In this document: positions 4,209 through 45,864 of the stretch, piece by piece
Position numbering within the stretch: position 1 is the first letter of the stretch
How the letters are laid out: each line of letters begins with the position of its first letter
Assembly (NCBI GenBank): GCA_025055675.1
Contig: JANWWT010000002.1
Location: forward strand, 186,001 to 250,000
DNA length: 64,000 nt
Reading direction: 5' to 3'
From: Pseudanabaenaceae cyanobacterium SKYG29
GTDB lineage: Bacteria; Cyanobacteriota; Cyanobacteriia; Pseudanabaenales; Pseudanabaenaceae
Notes under the pieces: model-generated
The model's database searches: none
What the model was told of the DNA's origin: nothing
What the model saw: only the letters and a program-made list of their open reading frames with translations
Position numbers and translations under genes: made by a program

Positions 4209-4997
4209 ATGACGGGGGAACAGTTAACAGTTGAACAGGCGATTGCTAACCTGGAGGGGCAGGATTTGGGAATGCGGCTCTACAGTGCCTGGTGGCTGGG
4301 ACGGTTCCGTGTGAAGGAGGAGAGGGCAATTCAAGCCTTAGTCAAGGCTCTGCAGGATAGAGACGATCGGACTCCCAACGGTGGCTATCCTCTGCGGCGG
4401 AATGCGGCACGGGCACTGGGTAAGTTGGGGGATAGGAATGTGGTACCCCATTTGATGGACTGTCTGTCCTGCGAGGATTTTTACGTGCGGGAGGCGGCAG
4501 CCCAATCTCTGGAAATGTTGCAAGACCCAGTCTGTATCCCCCATTTGATCAAGTTGCTGGCAGAGCCAGAATCCATACCCCATCCTGCGCCGGAATTGCC
4601 CTATCTAGCTCAGCCCTTTGATGCCATCATAGAAGCCCTCGGCACTTTGGGAGCGATCGAGGCGGTCGGTTTAATTGCCCCCTATCTGGAGCACGAGGTG
4701 CCTCGCATTCGTTTTGCCGCTGCCCGTGCTCTCTATCAACTCACTGATGACCGCAGTCGTTATGGTCAGATTTTAATTGATGGTCTCAATAGCCCCGATT
4801 TGCAACTACGGCGGGCAGTACTGGCAGACATTGGCGCGATCGGTTACCTGCAGGCAGCTCAACCTGTAGCGGATACGTTGGCGGAAAATAGCCTGAAATT
4901 GTTGGCTCTGAAAGGTATTCTGGAACAGAATTTACCCCCCGATTACTTGACGGCAGAAACGATCGCGGTCATGGATTTGATGGATTCTTTACTTTGA
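4209..4997 (+). CDS. cpcE: Phycocyanobilin lyase subunit CpcE-type (HEAT repeats)
   Basis: This is a 262-residue protein preceded by a good ribosome site (aggaggag, then ATG). Residues 25-35 read [10 protein letters not shown] and residues 60-75 read [20 protein letters not shown], followed by repeated HEAT-like units ([40 protein letters not shown]). The protein ends in MDLMDSLL. These features match CpcE, which with CpcF attaches phycocyanobilin to a cysteine of the phycocyanin alpha subunit. CpcF and the cpc structural genes are not in this window. Its position directly behind atpB, and convergent with accD by a 9-base overlap, is unusual. A related lyase subunit (PecE or an IaiH/NblB-type HEAT protein) is less likely given the CpcE-like ends. 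Confidence 0.85.
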
Positions 4998-37210: not shown

Positions 37211-38203
37211 CTAGAGTTTGTTATGGCGGAGAATCAACAAAACCACTGGTGCCCCTAACAAGGTAGTGACAGTATTGAGGGGCAGCATGACGGGCGGCAG
37301 TTGAGTGAGGAGATCAGCAGCTATTGCCAGCAAAGCGCCAACAACTACGGTAGTTGGGCACAACCAACTGTGATCACTGGTAGACCATGCCAGGCGGCAA
37401 ATGTGGGGTACGATTATTCCCAGGAAGCTAATTGGGCCACAGTAGGCTGTGACAGTGCCTGACATGAGAGAACTACTCAGGACGAGGAGTAAACGCACTT
37501 TGGGTAGGGATACTCCCAGACTGACGGCATATTCTTCCCCCAGTAACAGGATATTGAGGGCAGAAATCAGACCAAAGGCAATACCCAAACTAACTGTAAT
37601 CAGCACAGAAAAATATCCTAATTCTGCCAGACTCACCCCCCGAAAACTACCCGTCGACCAGGATAGAAACTGTTGTATCCGATCGGTAGGGGCAAAATAG
37701 ACAAGCAAAGAGGCAAGGGCACTGAAAATATAACTGAGCAGCAGACCAAGAATTAACAGACTGCGGCTATCTGTTAGACGGGCACTGACCAACAGTAAAA
37801 GCAATAGGACTGCTGTAGCCCCCAAGCAAGCTCCACCGACAAAACTCAGATCAGGCAGGGGAAAAGGCAATATGCCTTCGGCCAACACTACGATCGCTAC
37901 ACCCAGGCTGGCACCACCACTAATGCCCAGGACAAAGGGTTCTGCCAAAGGGTTGCGAAAGAGAGTCTGTAATTGCAAACCACTTACGCCCAAACCACCA
38001 CCTGCCAAAATCGCCGTAATTAATTTGGGTATCCTGAATTGCCACAATAGTTGACTTGGGGTAGAGTCAGTCATACCACCCAGAACCATCGACAACACCT
38101 GCCCTGGCGATAGAAAAACCCTACCGACACACAGGCTGACTAAAGACAAAATCAACAATAAAATACTTGTTACCATGAGTAGTAATGACCGTTTTTTATT
38201 CAT
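37211..38203 (-). CDS. btuC: FecCD/BtuC-type ABC permease, cobalamin uptake
   Basis: This 330-residue inner-membrane permease has about 9-10 helices. FecCD signatures are PSQLLWQFRIPKLITAILAG near residue 50, LQTLFRNPLAEPFVLGISGG near 80, and GPISFLGIIVPHICRLAWST near 255, followed by LTQLPPVMLPLNTVTTLLGA. The cobalamin role is inferred from the operon: it lies 4 bases into btuF and ultimately under the cobalamin riboswitch at 42.4 kb. The ATPase (btuD) that normally completes the transporter is not next to it. Confidence 0.88.
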   Translation of the reverse strand: MNKKRSLLLMVTSILLLILSLVSLCVGRVFLSPGQVLSMVLGGMTDSTPSQLLWQFRIPKLITAILAGGGLGVSGLQLQTLFRNPLAEPFVLGISGGASLGVAIVVLAEGILPFPLPDLSFVGGACLGATAVLLLLLLVSARLTDSRSLLILGLLLSYIFSALASLLVYFAPTDRIQQFLSWSTGSFRGVSLAELGYFSVLITVSLGIAFGLISALNILLLGEEYAVSLGVSLPKVRLLLVLSSSLMSGTVTAYCGPISFLGIIVPHICRLAWSTSDHSWLCPTTVVVGALLAIAADLLTQLPPVMLPLNTVTTLLGAPVVLLILRHNKL

Positions 38204-39390
38204 GGCTGAATTTTTTGGTAATAGACCAATTCATGATCAGGAAGGAGTTGGGGATGAAAAATTTTAATTAAGTCCGCCAAGATAAGATGGGGATTGGCTA
38301 CACCACTTTCCCAAAAGTCATTCGCCCCTTTCTCATGCAAACGCTTATTAGCTAGATAAACATTCCTATTTTGCACAGCCCGAAATTGACTGTAACGATC
38401 GTCTGTTTTGAGAATATCCTTAACTGTTCGCCAAGTCTGATCACCATTGACCCAATATTCAGCCTGCTGTCCCTTGAGCAAGACATCCTCAAAAGATAGT
38501 TGTAAACTCTCCTTGGAAGCATCATTTGCCCACAGATAGTTAGCCCCTGCATCTGCCAATAACTGGGCAGGATAGGTTTTACCCCCTGGTACATACCAAA
38601 CCCCTTGATAACTAAAACCCGCCATCACTGTGGGTCTCTTTTTGACATTCTGCGTCAGTTGCTTTAACTGTTGATACCTTTTTTCCACCTGATGGAAGTA
38701 CCGATCGGCTTTTTCTTCAGCGTTAAAAAACAGGGCTAGAAACTTAATCCATTCCGTTCTTGCCAAAGGTGAAGGCTCACGGTATTCTGCCACGATCGCT
38801 ACTGGTAAATTACCTTTGCGCAACACTGGCAAAACATCGGTATTAGGATTACCCGTCCCATAGGTGAAAACAACATCAGGTTTTAATAAAAAAAGTGCCT
38901 CTTGATTGAGAGTAGACCCCTGTCCTAGGGCAATAGTTTTACCCGCGGCAATCTGGTTATGGATTCGTTGTGAATATACGTAATGGGCTAAACCAATACC
39001 CTTGATTTTATCAACTACACCCAAATTTTCTAAGTGCGTCAAATAGGTAGTAGAAAGAGCCACGATCGATCGGGCAGGAATTGTAAATACCTGGTCATAG
39101 CCCGAAGGCACAGGTGCACCACACATAACTAATGCATACCGCAATTGCTTTCCACCCTTCCAGGGGCTATTAATTGTAACCAGTTTGTAGTATTTGTGAT
39201 AGGTGACTGTAAATCTTTGGGCATGTTTAACTTGCGTTTTAACAGGAAAATAGTCCTTTTGGGAGTCAAAGTTTCGGATACATTCCCTTGACTCAAACTT
39301 AGGGGGCAAAGATTTGTTTAATCCATAGGCAGTAAGCCACGGTACAGAGAATAAAAAGAGCAAGCCCAGACCTAACCTAAATTTCCCCAT
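38200..39390 (-). CDS. btuF: Periplasmic substrate-binding protein of the B12 transporter
   Basis: About 396 residues. A signal segment (FRLGLGLLFLFSVPWLTAYG) is followed by a FecB/BtuF-type domain with GYDQVFTIPARSIVALSTTY, LENLGVVDKIKGIGLAHYVY, LFLLKPDVVFTYGTGNPNTD and YLWANDASKESLQLSFEDVL. It is longer than E. coli BtuF because of a ~70-residue N-terminal insert (RECIRNFDSQKDYFPVKTQV) before the domain. By fold alone the substrate could be a siderophore; the riboswitch argues for cobalamin. The start is 39390 or 39399; both overlap the preceding gene. Confidence 0.85.
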   Translation of the reverse strand: MGKFRLGLGLLFLFSVPWLTAYGLNKSLPPKFESRECIRNFDSQKDYFPVKTQVKHAQRFTVTYHKYYKLVTINSPWKGGKQLRYALVMCGAPVPSGYDQVFTIPARSIVALSTTYLTHLENLGVVDKIKGIGLAHYVYSQRIHNQIAAGKTIALGQGSTLNQEALFLLKPDVVFTYGTGNPNTDVLPVLRKGNLPVAIVAEYREPSPLARTEWIKFLALFFNAEEKADRYFHQVEKRYQQLKQLTQNVKKRPTVMAGFSYQGVWYVPGGKTYPAQLLADAGANYLWANDASKESLQLSFEDVLLKGQQAEYWVNGDQTWRTVKDILKTDDRYSQFRAVQNRNVYLANKRLHEKGANDFWESGVANPHLILADLIKIFHPQLLPDHELVYYQKIQP

Positions 39391-40243
39391 GACTGGCATA
39401 CAAATAGCGTTCTACCTTTTGACCATTGACCAGATGGTCTCTGACAATTTGCCTGGCTACTTCGGGAGTAACACGACAATACCAAGTCCGATCGGCAGAA
39501 TAGAAAACAACAGGTCCCATCTTGCACACCTCTAAACAACCAGAATCTCCTACCCGTACATCCAAACCTTGTTTTTCTACTTCTTCTTTCAGGGCTTGAT
39601 AAATTGGTTGCCACTCCCGCGACGGCAGACAACGACCCGATCGGCAGACAGAAATATAAGGCTTTTTCAGGGGATTAGCAGGGAAAGGAATCGGGTCTAA
39701 GCCCAAAACATAAATACGGCGTAGAGATTCATACAGGCTGAGTTTTGCCAAGTTAGGTTGATGTTCTGGTAACAGGGACTCATCCTCTGCCACAAAGGGA
39801 TTAGGCAAAAACAAAGTCATCATCTTTTCTGCCTTACCATTCCAAAACTGAATTCCCCAACTGCGGGGTTGCCCCTGCTGATTAAACCGTCGATAAAAAG
39901 CACCCTTGCTGACCAGACGGTGTTGTTGCAATTCCTTGGATGTCCGATCGTGGGGACCGCCTCGATGTTCCTCAACGCACAGATGTAAATGCCAACTGTC
40001 AGTGACCACAGTTAAATAACCATCGTAAATTACATTGATTTTGGGTGGGGCATTAAACTCTAGTTCCAAAACACTGCCCTCTACCACATGACCTACCTGC
40101 ACCGATCGCCAATTTTCCTCAAACAGAGTGAACAACAGAGGACCCAAAACATCGATCGTGACAGGAAAGAACTCATATTCAATTTGTCCACCATTGGGTG
40201 TATTTTCCACAAGAGTTTGCCCCAGGGGTGTGACATAACGCAT
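39377..40243 (-). CDS. Two-domain protein with C-terminal thioredoxin-like [2Fe-2S] ferredoxin
   Basis: A 288-residue cytoplasmic protein. The N-terminal ~180 residues (IEYEFFPVTIDVLGPLLFTL, LHLCVEEHRGGPHDRTSKEL) form a domain I do not recognise. The C-terminal ~85 residues are a thioredoxin-like ferredoxin: YISVCRSGRCLPSREW, then GLDVRVGDSGCLEVCKMGP, giving cysteines C-x4-C and C-x3-C, and PEVARQIVRDHLVNG. Lying between btuB and btuF under a cobalamin riboswitch, it is a candidate for reducing or processing imported cobalamin. That role is inference from context only. Confidence 0.75.
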   Translation of the reverse strand: MRYVTPLGQTLVENTPNGGQIEYEFFPVTIDVLGPLLFTLFEENWRSVQVGHVVEGSVLELEFNAPPKINVIYDGYLTVVTDSWHLHLCVEEHRGGPHDRTSKELQQHRLVSKGAFYRRFNQQGQPRSWGIQFWNGKAEKMMTLFLPNPFVAEDESLLPEHQPNLAKLSLYESLRRIYVLGLDPIPFPANPLKKPYISVCRSGRCLPSREWQPIYQALKEEVEKQGLDVRVGDSGCLEVCKMGPVVFYSADRTWYCRVTPEVARQIVRDHLVNGQKVERYLYASHGEI

Positions 40244-40255
40244 AGTTATTTTCTC

Positions 40256-42313
40256 CTACAAAAAGCTTGCAGTTAAACCTAGGCGATAGGTACGTCCCGC
40301 ATCAGGAAAGCCAGGAAACAATTCAAACCGTTGGTCAAAAATATTTTCTACTCCCCCTGTCAGTTGCCATCCTTCTCCCAGAGGTAAGCGAAACCGCAGA
40401 TCAAAAGTAGTATAGCCATTGAGAAATTCCCGATTCAAGTTGTCTGTAGGATAGCCAGATAGGGAGTGCATAAGCAGACCAACGTAAGTACCTTTACGGT
40501 CATCAAAAGCCAGCCCTAAATTCAATGAATCAGCACCAGCAAAGCGTAACTCTTTACCGATTACAGCGGGATTAGCATCATCTAAAATAATTGGGTTATT
40601 ATTGGTGTAATTAGCTTGCAGGAATAGATTAGGTGCCAGTTGCAAGTTTAAACTAGTTTCTACACCCGTAGAGCGGACAAAACCAATATTTGTAAAGGTA
40701 CCACTGATGCCATCCCTAGGGGGAATAACCCTCGTAAAAGCTACAACATTGCTGATATTATTGATGTAGTAAGTGAACCGCAATAGACCTATATCCCCTA
40801 ATTTTTGATCGAAACCAAAATCGTAACTATCCCCTGTTTCTGGCAGTAGGTTGGGGTTACCAATAAAAGTGGGATTGGCTGAGAACAAGTTAGAGATAGT
40901 CGGCAAACGGAAATTGCGCACATAGTTAGCCCGCACAATTGTGTCGCCAAAACCAAATTTAGTCCCTACGGCAGGAGTAGTTACAGAACCCTTCGCTAAG
41001 CTACTAAACTCCTGTCTTAGTCCAGCAGTGACAGCCATAGATGGACTGACATCAACAACATATTGAGCAAAGATAGCCCCCTGGGATACACCTGCATCAT
41101 AGCCCAATCTGACTTCTTCTGTCGCTAGATTTTGCGTAGTGTTCCTCACAGCGACATCGCGGTAGTCCAGCCCATAGGTAAGAGTTTGATTGGGGGCAAA
41201 CTGCCAGCGGTGTTGTATCTGGGTTCCCCAAGAACGCTGCCTTGTCTCAAATCTCTGTTGTGTTTGTGGTCTTCTACTTTTCACAGTCCGCCCAGCAGTG
41301 TCAACACTCAGGGTTTCGGCAAAAGCAGTGCGATTATCAAAGCGCGTGTTGAGAAAGTCGGCAAAAATCCGAGCTGTTAGCAGAGAATCTGTTCCTGCTC
41401 CCAACTGCTGCTGCCAGGATACATCGGTGAGAATCTGGTCAGTATACTTGCGATTGTTATCGGTGAGAGAATTAAAAAACCCCTGTCCAAACTGTGGTTC
41501 AGGAATCGGTACTCCCCCTGGTACGCCCTGTTCTTTCGGTAAGTAAAAGGCAGACAAACTCAGTTTAGTCCGATCGGTTGGCTCATAGTTAAACTTTATG
41601 CCCAGGTTATTGTAGATGGTGTCATTGTTGACACGGAAGGCAGACACATCAGCGATCGAAAAGAAGTAGTTGTTCTGGGCTTGGGTACGATTGTAGTTTA
41701 ACAAAAGCGAAAAATCTCCCTCCCTGGTATTCAGGGAAAACTGTTGGCTATTAAAACCCAAATTCCCCAGCTCAGTAGTTAAGCGATAGACTCTGCCCTC
41801 CTCTGGACTAGTTGTGATAATGTTGACAATCCCACCAATCGCATCCGAACCATAGAGGGTAGAACCGCCACCAGGCAAAACCTCAATCCTTTCAATGATG
41901 TCGGTGGTCAGTTCGGAGAGGTCAAAAGCACCCGCTCCCAGATTGTTGATTGGTCTGCCATCTAATAAAATCAACACCTGTGCCGAATTAGAACCCCTAA
42001 TGAACTGCCCCGACAGGGCGTTGACCTCTGTACCAACCGTGCCATCAGGCAAAATGCCTGGCAAAAAGCGCAAAGCTTCTCTAACTGTTCTCGCCCCCTG
42101 GGCTTCTATCTCTTGTCTTTCGATCGTGTAAGCAGGTCGAGTCGTATCCCTAAGGGTACCTTCACTGCGGAAAGGAGTAGCCAGGGGTCGCCGTAGCAGT
42201 TGCTCTGTAACCGTCAGTTCAATGTCATCCTTGGTTTGAGCTAAAGCCCAACCACCAACCAAAGAAACATAAACAAGACTGCCCCAGGACAGCCGCAATA
42301 GTAGTTTAGCCAT
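40256..42313 (-). CDS. btuB: TonB-dependent outer-membrane receptor, BtuB-like
   Basis: About 685 residues starting at MAKLLLRLSWGSLVYVSLVG (ribosome site GAGGT); cleavage is likely after WALA-Q. The TonB box is near DDIELTVTEQLL. The plug domain has TIERQEIEAQGARTVREALR, FIRGSNSAQVLILLDGRPIN, and RIEVLPGGGSTLYGSDAIGG, and a 22-strand barrel follows, ending in the aromatic YRLGLTASFL. The BtuB assignment rests on the cobalamin riboswitch in its leader and on the btuF/btuC genes behind it. An upstream reading to 42346 only covers the leader. Confidence 0.9.
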   Translation of the reverse strand: MAKLLLRLSWGSLVYVSLVGGWALAQTKDDIELTVTEQLLRRPLATPFRSEGTLRDTTRPAYTIERQEIEAQGARTVREALRFLPGILPDGTVGTEVNALSGQFIRGSNSAQVLILLDGRPINNLGAGAFDLSELTTDIIERIEVLPGGGSTLYGSDAIGGIVNIITTSPEEGRVYRLTTELGNLGFNSQQFSLNTREGDFSLLLNYNRTQAQNNYFFSIADVSAFRVNNDTIYNNLGIKFNYEPTDRTKLSLSAFYLPKEQGVPGGVPIPEPQFGQGFFNSLTDNNRKYTDQILTDVSWQQQLGAGTDSLLTARIFADFLNTRFDNRTAFAETLSVDTAGRTVKSRRPQTQQRFETRQRSWGTQIQHRWQFAPNQTLTYGLDYRDVAVRNTTQNLATEEVRLGYDAGVSQGAIFAQYVVDVSPSMAVTAGLRQEFSSLAKGSVTTPAVGTKFGFGDTIVRANYVRNFRLPTISNLFSANPTFIGNPNLLPETGDSYDFGFDQKLGDIGLLRFTYYINNISNVVAFTRVIPPRDGISGTFTNIGFVRSTGVETSLNLQLAPNLFLQANYTNNNPIILDDANPAVIGKELRFAGADSLNLGLAFDDRKGTYVGLLMHSLSGYPTDNLNREFLNGYTTFDLRFRLPLGEGWQLTGGVENIFDQRFELFPGFPDAGRTYRLGLTASFL

Positions 42314-42350
42314 TTTCTGTACCTCGCAGAAAAAAGGGAATAGCAAGACA

Positions 42351-42485
42351 CCTGGCGGGCATTCTGACTGAGGAAGATACTTCCATCACAGCTGCGGGAC
42401 AGCGTTGGATTCACACCAAACTTTCCCCGTTACCTCTAGGGGCTGCTCCCCCCCAGAACCAAGTCACCTTACCCTAGCACCATCT
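42351..42485 (-). ncRNA. Cobalamin riboswitch
   Basis: Read on the minus strand, the leader of btuB contains GGGGAAAGTTTGGTGTGAAT, then CCAACGCTGTCCCGCAGCTG, TGATGGAAG and AGTCAGAATGCCCGCCAGG. These are the conserved core elements of the cobalamin riboswitch (GGGAA, GGTGxxAATCC, CCCGCxxCTGT and the closing GTCAG..GCC). It ends about 38 bases before the btuB start, so binding probably blocks translation or continued transcription of btuB. The 5' boundary is approximate. Confidence 0.93.
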
Positions 42486-42779: not shown

Positions 42780-43814
42780 ATGGAAATAGAACAACGTATG
42801 CAGGAGACTGGGGATGACAATATCCCTTGGTGGGCAGGCAATGCTCGGCTGACCAACTTATCGGGTCAACTGTTGGGTGCTCATGTTGCCCATGCGGGGT
42901 TAATTGTGTTGTGGGCAGGACTGATGACTTTGTTTGAAATTGCCCATTTCGATCCCAGTCGACCAATGTATGAACAGGGATTGATTCTTTTACCCCATTT
43001 AGCTAGCCAAGGTTGGGGGATAGGTGCAGATGGAGTTGTAGTCTCCACTTATCCCTTTTATGTTATTGGGGTTTTGCACTTGATTTCTTCAGGAGTGCTT
43101 AGTTTTGGTGGTGTCTTCCATGCTCTGCGGGGACCTAAGTCTTTGTTAAATTTGCCATTCTATGGTTACACCTGGGCAGACACTAACAAGATGACTAACA
43201 TTATTGGCTTCCATATAATTGTATTAGGATTAGGAGCCTTGTTATTGGTGACAAAAGCTATGTTTTGGGGTGGTTTGTACGACCCGATCGCTAGAACTGT
43301 GCGTCTGGTTACTAATCCTACCCTCGATCCAGGGATTATTTTTGGTTACTTGTTTGGTGCAATTGGCAAGAATTGGCTTGCCAGCGTGGATAATCTAGAA
43401 GATGTGGTAGGTGGTCACATTTGGATTGGGTTAATTTGTATTGGTGGTGGCATCTTTCACCTGCTAACTAAACCGTACAGTTGGACAGAGAGGCTATTTA
43501 TTTGGTCAGGAGAGGCCTACCTGTCTTACAGCCTAGGTGCCCTAGCTTTGATGGCATTTGTAGCCACATATTTTGTATCCGTCAATACTACAGTATACCC
43601 GATCGTTTTCTATGGTGAACCGCTATCGATCAAGATGGGGATTGTCCCCTACTTTGCTACCTTTGACGGCAGTCTAACCAATAGAGTGTGGTTAGCTAAC
43701 GCTCATTTCTGGTTAGGTTTCTTCTTTTTGCAGGGACATATTTTCCACGCGCTGCAGGCTTGGGGCTTTAACTTTAGAACAGGTAGAGTCGAATCAGTTG
43801 TAGCACAGGTATAG
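42780..43814 (+). CDS. isiA: Iron-stress chlorophyll-binding antenna IsiA (CP43')
   Basis: A 344-residue thylakoid protein with six helices of the PsbC/Pcb family. It lacks the large lumenal loop of true PsbC. Residues [21 protein letters not shown] (written in outline), [48 protein letters not shown] and [20 protein letters not shown] contain the His ligands for chlorophyll. Under iron starvation IsiA forms rings around photosystem I and quenches excess energy. isiB follows by 10 bases. Confidence 0.96.
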
Positions 43815-44367: not shown

Positions 44368-45864
44368 ATGACAGCTACAATTACTTACGAACGACAACCA
44401 CAACAGTTTGGTTGGTGGGCAGGCAATGCTCGTCTAACAGAACTATCGGGGAAACTCCTGGGTGCCCATGTTGCCCATGCGGGTTTGATTGTTCTATGGG
44501 CAGGGGCTATGACTCTCTTTGAGTTATCCAGGTACGATGCGTCCCGACCAATTTATGAGCAGGGTTTAATTCTTTTACCCCACATTGCCAGTTTGGGTGT
44601 GGGAGTAGCCAAGGGAGGAGTGATTGTTGACACCTATCCCTACTTTGTGATTGCGGTTTTACACTTAGTTTCCTCAGCTGTTCTAGGGGCTGGGGGTATT
44701 TTCCACTCTCTGCTACAGGCAGACAGATTGCCTATGTCCAACACATTTAGCGGTTTCTTTGGCTACGAGTGGGAAGACGGCGATAAAATGACGACCATCA
44801 TCGGTATTCACCTTTTACTCTTGGGGGGAGGAGCATTACTACTAGTAGCTAAAGCTCTATTTTGGGGTGGTTTGTATGACCCAAGAGTAGAGGATGTACG
44901 GGTAATTACTAATCCCACTCTCAATCCATTTGTCATCTTTGGCTACTTGTTGGGCATCGTTGGCAACGGTAGAGGTATGGCAGCTGTAAATAATCTGGAA
45001 GATGTGGTCGGTGGTCATATCTATGTTGGTCTTTTGTGTATTGGTGGTGGTGTCTTTCACATCCTGACCAAGCCGTTTGCCTGGGCACGATCGGTTCTCA
45101 TCTATTCTGGGGAAGCTTATCTTTCCTATAGCTTGGGTGCTCTTGCTTACATGGGTGCTCTAGCAGCTTACTTTGTTACCTTCAACAACACTGTTTATCC
45201 AGAAGTTTTTTACGGGCCTGTAGATACTTGGCAAACGACAGCAGGAGTGGTGACAACTAGGGGATGGCTGGCTTCTTTCCACTATGTTTTGGCAGGATTG
45301 TTTCTTGCAGGTCATCTGTGGCATGCCATCCGTGCTCGTGCAAAGGCAAAGGGGTTTGATCTCAGTAAAGGGGATTTGGTCCGCCCCTTCGACAATGATC
45401 CCCAGGTGGGCAATCTGGCTACACCTGTCAACTCTTCTGACTTTACTCTGAACTTTCTGCGCGGTTTACCAATCTATCGGGCTGGTCTTTCGCCTTTTGC
45501 CAGAGGTTTGGAAATCGGTATGGCCCATGGCTACTGGCTGATTGGACCTTTCATTAAACTCAATCCTGCCCGTGATACGGACTTTGCTTATACTTCGGGG
45601 CTGTTGGCAACTCTAGCGTTGTTGCTGGTGATGACGATCGCTTTGTCTACCTATGGTACCGTTTCCTTTCAGAAGCAGCTAGTGACAGTACCCCGTCCTG
45701 CCTTTGCCCGTACCATACCCAATGTCCCAGAAACCCTCGTCACTATCGAAGGATGGAGTCAGTTTACGGCGGCATTCTTTGTGGGCGGTTGTGGGGGGGC
45801 AGTGTTTGCCTATCAGCTGCTGTTGAACTGGGGACGGATTCAAAATTTGTTTCCCTTGAGTTAG
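44368..45864 (+). CDS. CP43'-type antenna fused to a PsaL-like domain
   Basis: A 498-residue protein. Residues 1-335 are an IsiA-like six-helix antenna ([55 protein letters not shown]). From about 345 it changes to a photosystem I subunit XI (PsaL)-like domain: [56 protein letters not shown] and two to three further helices ending at [14 protein letters not shown]. Such fusions are known in several cyanobacteria and could dock antenna at the PsaL site of photosystem I. Its place behind isiAB supports an iron-stress role. Confidence 0.93.

Follow-up and report, generated by a model that had tools for sequence, protein, structure and literature searches.

What might a protein that joins an uncharacterized domain to a ferredoxin do in a B12 import operon? 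The question was raised by a gene in a 64,000-nucleotide stretch of the Pseudanabaenaceae cyanobacterium SKYG29 genome (assembly GCA_025055675.1, contig JANWWT010000002.1, positions 186,001 to 250,000 of the forward strand), which we refer to as the window. An initial annotation, made from the DNA alone, had described an open reading frame (ORF) at positions 39377 to 40243 and suggested that its product may reduce, decyanate, or otherwise process imported corrinoid. We recovered this ORF with exactly these coordinates and located it on the minus strand, which the annotation had not given. The chance expectation of a 288-codon open frame at the given GC content is ∼1e-7, and homologs are 60 to 67% identical to the fusion protein over its full length. 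The gene, its parts, and its neighbors are as follows:

42337 to 42478, minus strand: cobalamin riboswitch aptamer (RF00174; 56.4 bits; cut-off, 31.5)
40256 to 42313, minus strand: TonB-dependent receptor, BtuB-like, with signal peptide (Plug and TonB beta-barrel)
39377 to 40243, minus strand: DUF7676-thioredoxin-like [2Fe-2S] ferredoxin fusion gene (DUF7676-Fd; 288 amino acids)
39710 to 40207, minus strand: DUF7676 domain (residues 13 to 178; PF24724; predicted HutX/ChuX/HemS-type fold)
39977 to 39991, minus strand: H85-x-H87-x-C89 motif, invariant in 47 of 47 aligned family sequences
39395 to 39664, minus strand: thioredoxin-like [2Fe-2S] ferredoxin domain (residues 194 to 283; cysteines 200, 205, 236, and 240)
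38200 to 39399, minus strand: BtuF-like substrate-binding protein (Peripla_BP_2, 112 bits)
37211 to 38203, minus strand: BtuC-like permease (FecCD, 243 bits)

The fusion gene lies in a B12 uptake operon

On the minus strand, the order is cobalamin riboswitch, TonB receptor, DUF7676-Fd gene, BtuF-like gene, and BtuC-like gene. The riboswitch ends ∼24 nucleotides before the receptor's likely start codon (ATG at 42313; the mechanical ORF begins with TTG at 42346), and the start of the BtuF-like gene overlaps the end of the DUF7676-Fd gene by 23 bp. The best NCBIfam models for the receptor and the permease were TonB-B12 (TIGR01779; 1.6e-48) and BtuC (5.6e-57), respectively, both below cut-off. No BtuD ATPase gene was found after the BtuC-like gene, and a BtuD-like ATPase gene is present elsewhere in the same genome. 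By its riboswitch, its BtuB-like receptor, and its BtuF- and BtuC-like genes, this is a B12 uptake (Btu) operon. The B12 setting assigned by the initial annotation was therefore correct, with RF00174 lying ahead of the receptor gene in the same orientation.

The genome contains three cobalamin riboswitches in total, two besides the operon's own. It also encodes CobQ, a CobA/BtuR adenosyltransferase, and B12-dependent MetH, and because of CobQ a cobamide is probably made. A separate ChuX_HutX-family gene is present as well. Elsewhere in the window, two matches to the IsrR antisense RNA (43173 to 43350 and 44770 to 44947, minus strand) each lie opposite one of two isiA/Pcb-like genes, and this pair flanks a flavodoxin-like gene.

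Domains and conserved residues

Residues 13 to 178 of the protein matched the Pfam family PF24724 (DUF7676) with 216.7 bits (E value, 1.7e-64; cut-off, 27), covering positions 3 to 166 of the 166 in the profile. The N-terminal 180 residues, which had been reported to match nothing familiar, thus belong to a known family, one of uncharacterized function; our search of open-access papers found DUF7676 named in none. When solved relatives of DUF7676 were sought by sequence with phmmer, matches were confined to the ferredoxin part, as they were in the phage search, and a PHROGs search gave no match. The profile search returned only lysyl-tRNA ligase (E value, 0.18), a match attributable to chance.

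The C-terminal part matched the ferredoxin portion of NiFe-hydrogenase subunit B (E value, 1e-14) and the Aquifex ferredoxin 1f37 (E value, 6e-10) by phmmer, and the predicted ferredoxin domain matched 1m2a by Foldseek (E value, 3.4e-7). The cluster cysteines C200, C205, C236, and C240 are invariant among 10 relatives. By fold and cysteines, this domain is a thioredoxin-like [2Fe-2S] ferredoxin outside the curated PF01257 and NF041612 subfamilies, whose cut-offs it missed (17.7 bits versus 24.8 and 38.4 versus 150, respectively). Sequence, predicted fold, and all four cysteines agree here with what had been read from the ORF initially. No signal peptide was seen in the 288-residue protein, which should therefore be cytoplasmic.

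Residues conserved in the DUF7676 domain across 47 aligned sequences, which represent three phyla, include W45, G56, E60, P67, D74-G-Y76, R109, R118, W129-G130, N135, P147, and P149. To these is added H85-x-H87-x-C89, which, judging from the alignment, we treat as a candidate ligand motif.

A predicted heme-carrier fold

We modeled both the full-length protein (pLDDT, 80; pTM, 0.77) and the DUF7676 domain alone (pLDDT, 80; pTM, 0.79) with AlphaFold, using 10 close sequences and leaving out the distant noncyanobacterial members; a pLDDT of 80 is that of the best of five models, the weakest of which reached 36 to 42. In a Foldseek comparison of the domain model with the PDB, the 14 best matches (E value ≤0.033) were all of the HutX/HemS type. 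These matches included HutX (E value, 1.3e-4), the Leptospirillum structure 3na2, HemS, PhuS, ChuS, and the Anabaena HemS-like structure 3fm2, and the other matches listed had probabilities below 0.2, except for one more PhuS chain. The full-length model likewise matched HutX (E value, 2.3e-5) and ChuX (E value, 4.1e-5). The TM-scores of the models to HutX were only about 0.46 to 0.52. With these two moderate-confidence models, HutX/ChuX/HemS was the only superfamily matched by the DUF7676 domain with meaningful Foldseek scores, and DUF7676 is predicted to have the fold of the cytoplasmic heme carriers HutX, ChuX, HemS, ChuS, and PhuS.

Searches for the same relationship at the level of sequence gave weak matches or none. 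PF22684 (LFE_1968-like), the family to which 3na2 probably belongs as judged by its title, matched DUF7676 weakly over most of the domain (E value, 0.0047), and an hhalign comparison with cyanobacterial HutX-like proteins was also weak (pairwise E value, 0.007; probability, 5%). None of 13 DUF7676 members matched the ChuX_HutX or HemS carrier Pfam families at E values up to 10. The hhalign comparison pairs H87 with the histidine that is invariant among the HutX-like proteins, a correspondence that is suggestive only.

DUF7676 is linked to cobalamin riboswitches across phyla

In 31 of 40 distinct cyanobacterial loci, a same-strand cobalamin riboswitch lies no more than 4 kb upstream of the gene. 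Four of the remaining nine (L029, L034, L035, and L070) are incomplete on the upstream side, two have a riboswitch farther away (4.4 kb in L032 and 6.8 kb in L033), and in three (L036, L069, and L072) none was detected, nor did a permissive scan recover one in L069. In L027 and L028, the DUF7676 gene is the first gene behind the riboswitch. The noncyanobacterial members, which were drawn from plasmid records, are stand-alone DUF7676 proteins of ∼190 residues, and five of their six distant loci (all four proteobacterial loci and that of Rhodococcus) have a riboswitch upstream in the same orientation. In Azospirillum, Methylocella, Diaphorobacter, and Paracoccus, the riboswitch is followed by a TonB receptor, DUF7676, and an inner-membrane importer or its candidate replacement; this position between receptor and importer (or candidate replacement) is found in all four proteobacterial loci and in almost every complete cyanobacterial locus. 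The Rhodococcus run consists of the riboswitch, BtuFCD, an FhuF_C protein, and DUF7676 as the last gene. On a Streptomyces plasmid, DUF7676 also has an FhuF_C-type neighbor, and no riboswitch was detected at that locus.

The survey strongly supports the link to B12. The corrinoid reading of the initial annotation would have been refuted if most homologs had siderophore or unrelated genes as neighbors; instead, riboswitches lie upstream across phyla. The gene itself is patchily distributed, being present in 26 of the 386 cyanobacterial genomes, and DUF7676 is therefore no prerequisite for B12 use.

Several other genes recur in these neighborhoods. A metallophosphoesterase gene lies between the BtuF-like and BtuC-like genes in L037 (11149 to 11928), L049, L050, L051, L053, and L055. 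In loci of the marine Trichodesmium and Hydrocoleum, metE, encoding cobalamin-independent methionine synthase, lies upstream of DUF7676 (L033/L058, 3442 to 5676; L029), with a TENA-like gene between the two in L033 and a cobalamin riboswitch further upstream in L058.

Part of this context has been published. The Anabaena sp. PCC 7120 operon alr4027-btuB2-alr4030-btuF-btuC-btuD has a cobalamin riboswitch ahead of it, is induced when cells are starved of cobalt, and is needed for cyanocobalamin uptake, with less cobalamin taken up by btuB2 and btuD mutants (Graf et al. 2024, PMC10878165). It is thus already known as a B12 uptake operon, and alr4030 was only called ferredoxin-like in that study, without a name or a functional test (PMC10878165). 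The published btuB2 primer matches exactly the receptor gene adjoining the DUF7676-Fd gene in L039, L065, and L071, and alr4030 is therefore an apparent ortholog, as judged from its neighbor gene rather than from its own sequence. The predicted fold, the association with riboswitches across phyla, and the recurrence of Fe-S partners described below appear to be new in that we found them in no open-access paper, which does not prove novelty.

A probable exchange of the importer around DUF7676

Loci without BtuF and BtuC encode a hydrophobic protein of ∼200 residues directly downstream of DUF7676 (12 distinct loci, including Methylocella), and in no locus do this protein and BtuF/BtuC occur together. 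The small membrane protein replaces BtuFC in about one-fourth of loci, for instance:

L027, 11000 to 11617: hydrophobic ∼200-residue protein
L032, 11338 to 11943: hydrophobic ∼200-residue protein
L036, 9917 to 10504: hydrophobic ∼200-residue protein
L044, 9592 to 10161: hydrophobic ∼200-residue protein
Eight more loci: hydrophobic ∼200-residue protein

We found no significant match to it in Pfam, NCBIfam, or the PDB and regard it as a candidate for a new permease that brings B12 across the inner membrane. Mapping the BtuFC and hydrophobic-protein states onto the DUF7676 tree requires four changes, two of which are forced by well-supported branches, so the DUF7676 gene stays while the importer is exchanged. 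Such an exchange around a constant DUF7676 is expected if DUF7676 acts on the substrate. BtuM was also considered as the identity of the hydrophobic protein and was rejected, as there was no match to a solved structure in the PDB and no invariant cobalt-ligating cysteine in the alignment.

DUF7676 is repeatedly paired with Fe-S proteins

Three different Fe-S-type partners of DUF7676 were found: the fused ferredoxin, an FhuF-type [2Fe-2S] protein, and DUF1636. Actinobacterial DUF7676 is preceded by an FhuF_C [2Fe-2S] domain protein with the motif CC-x10-CxxC, and the cysteine-rich DUF1636 is encoded close to DUF7676 in 15 loci. One of the four proteobacterial loci (Azospirillum, with DUF1636) has a visible Fe-S-type neighbor. 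From this repeated pairing with different redox proteins we infer reduction rather than simple carriage, and this is our main argument.

A related arrangement was observed on a Rhodococcus plasmid (L043, 9637 to 10323), where a second importer operon under riboswitch control encodes a weakly CbiX-like domain joined to a thioredoxin-like [2Fe-2S] ferredoxin. The ferredoxin is of the same type as that of the window fusion and is attached to another corrinoid-related domain.

Proposed role and alternative explanations

We propose, with a probability of roughly one-half, that DUF7676-Fd is a cytoplasmic corrinoid-receiving reductase of the B12 import operon; its predicted heme-carrier shape and its fused electron-carrying Fe-S domain suggest that it probably accepts incoming B12 and reduces it. 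Once BtuB and BtuFC (or the alternative permease) had brought a corrinoid into the cell, DUF7676 would hold it in the counterpart of its relatives' heme pocket, and the invariant H85-x-H87-x-C89 motif would lie close to the cobalt. An electron from the fused [2Fe-2S] domain may then reduce Co(III) to Co(II), so that cyanide or another upper ligand is lost and the corrinoid can be passed to the adenosyltransferase or methionine synthase encoded in the genome. For DUF7676 proteins without a fused ferredoxin, an FhuF-type or DUF1636 Fe-S protein would serve instead. The earlier suggestion of corrinoid processing is thus supported in its context and made more specific in its mechanism by the predicted fold and the recurring Fe-S partners, while binding, reduction, and decyanation stay at the level of proposal.

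A noncatalytic corrinoid carrier or chaperone, which would bind imported corrinoid and hand it over as HutX and PhuS do heme and in which the Fe-S domain is a structural, docking, or sensing module, would share both operon position and predicted fold with the heme carriers and would fit the three proteobacterial loci that show no Fe-S partner nearby. We consider it rather unlikely, as the invariant cluster cysteines and the three recurring Fe-S types point to electron transfer. The induction of the Anabaena operon by cobalt starvation (PMC10878165) and the degradation of heme by some relatives of the fold (PMC12670364) are what one would expect of a cobalt-recovery enzyme that starts corrinoid breakdown to free cobalt, as the ChuS/HutZ pathways do for heme iron. 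Riboswitch control, however, senses the cofactor, and the genome has an adenosyltransferase and B12-dependent MetH. As we know of no corrin-opening enzyme with a HutX/HemS-type fold, we find cobalt recovery quite improbable.

In 14 cyanobacterial operons, a one-mismatch Zur-type box (TGATAATnATTATCA; 0 of 100 shuffles as good; e.g., L039, L065, L066, L037, and L030) lies 110 to 270 bp before the receptor gene, and Alr4028-4029 (BtuB2) accumulates in a zur mutant and has been called a Zur target (PMC10957091). A DUF7676 operon copy on a Gloeocapsopsis dulcis plasmid (L036, 4899 to 17369), for which no cobalamin riboswitch was detected, also lies among zinc-stress-type genes (thrS, CobW-like, folE, hisI, and cysS), and a box-like sequence at position 4872 lies ahead of this set. 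The operon might then serve zinc or a zincophore, with DUF7676 handling a zinc complex. Yet the box scan found no Zur-type box in the window operon (the best has 4 mismatches, with 52 of 100 shuffles as good) or in the proteobacterial operons, and zinc control therefore looks like an addition specific to certain lineages. Nearly all of the operons have a cobalamin riboswitch, as do most of those with a Zur-type box, and cobalamin uptake is lowered in btuB2 and btuD mutants (PMC10878165). We rejected zinc as the main substrate because the boxes, common in cyanobacteria, are absent from the window and outside cyanobacteria, and we judge zinc handling by DUF7676 very improbable. The predicted fold, which is that of heme carriers, could also bind heme, and the gene could then link iron or heme status to B12 import; with no heme-uptake genes alongside in the annotated loci and a separate ChuX_HutX-family gene in the genome, this is the least probable of the readings weighed here.

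Returning to the corrinoid-receiving reductase, its interest would lie in a step that is poorly defined in bacteria, namely, the fate of B12 after it leaves the inner-membrane importer and before it reaches the adenosyltransferase. We suggest tentatively, as a possibility short of even odds, that DUF7676 represents a branch of the heme-carrier superfamily specialized for corrinoids and that, with its [2Fe-2S] partners, it forms a missing bacterial cytosolic Co(III)-corrinoid reductase/decyanase. If this is right, cells have reused the heme-carrier design for corrinoids. An uncharacterized Pfam family can now be assigned a location and a predicted fold, together with a few invariant residues and a redox partner, and there is a specific reason to look at alr4030, which the 2024 study passed over. 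The result also bears on why the Anabaena operon answers to both B12 and zinc.

Comparison with known systems

The window operon resembles the Anabaena operon in gene order and in its cobalamin riboswitch but is without alr4027 (DUF1636) and btuD alongside. With the ferric-siderophore reductase FhuF, DUF7676 shares the logic of reducing an imported metal complex, and an FhuF_C-type [2Fe-2S] protein is its actinobacterial partner; DUF7676 is nevertheless another family, in a corrinoid operon. Like CblC (MMACHC), it would process imported cobalamin reductively. CblC reduction uses flavin, whereas the electron source for DUF7676 would be a [2Fe-2S] cluster; if the reductase/decyanase reading is true, DUF7676 would be a functional counterpart of human CblC with a different fold and Fe-S rather than flavin electrons. 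BtuM, which processes cobalamin with a cysteine (PMC6072759), differs in the same respect, and none of the searches revealed a resemblance to CblC or BtuM in sequence or fold.

Another parallel is with the heme carriers HutX, ChuX, HemS, ChuS, and PhuS, which are alike in predicted fold, in having no signal peptide, and in being encoded next to a TonB receptor and an ABC importer of a tetrapyrrole. DUF7676 differs from them in being without a significant Pfam match to their families, in its corrinoid rather than heme context, and in its invariant HxHxC motif and fused ferredoxin. HutX and PhuS hand imported heme to degrading enzymes (PMC12670364), and the place they take in heme operons is the place that DUF7676 takes in corrinoid operons.
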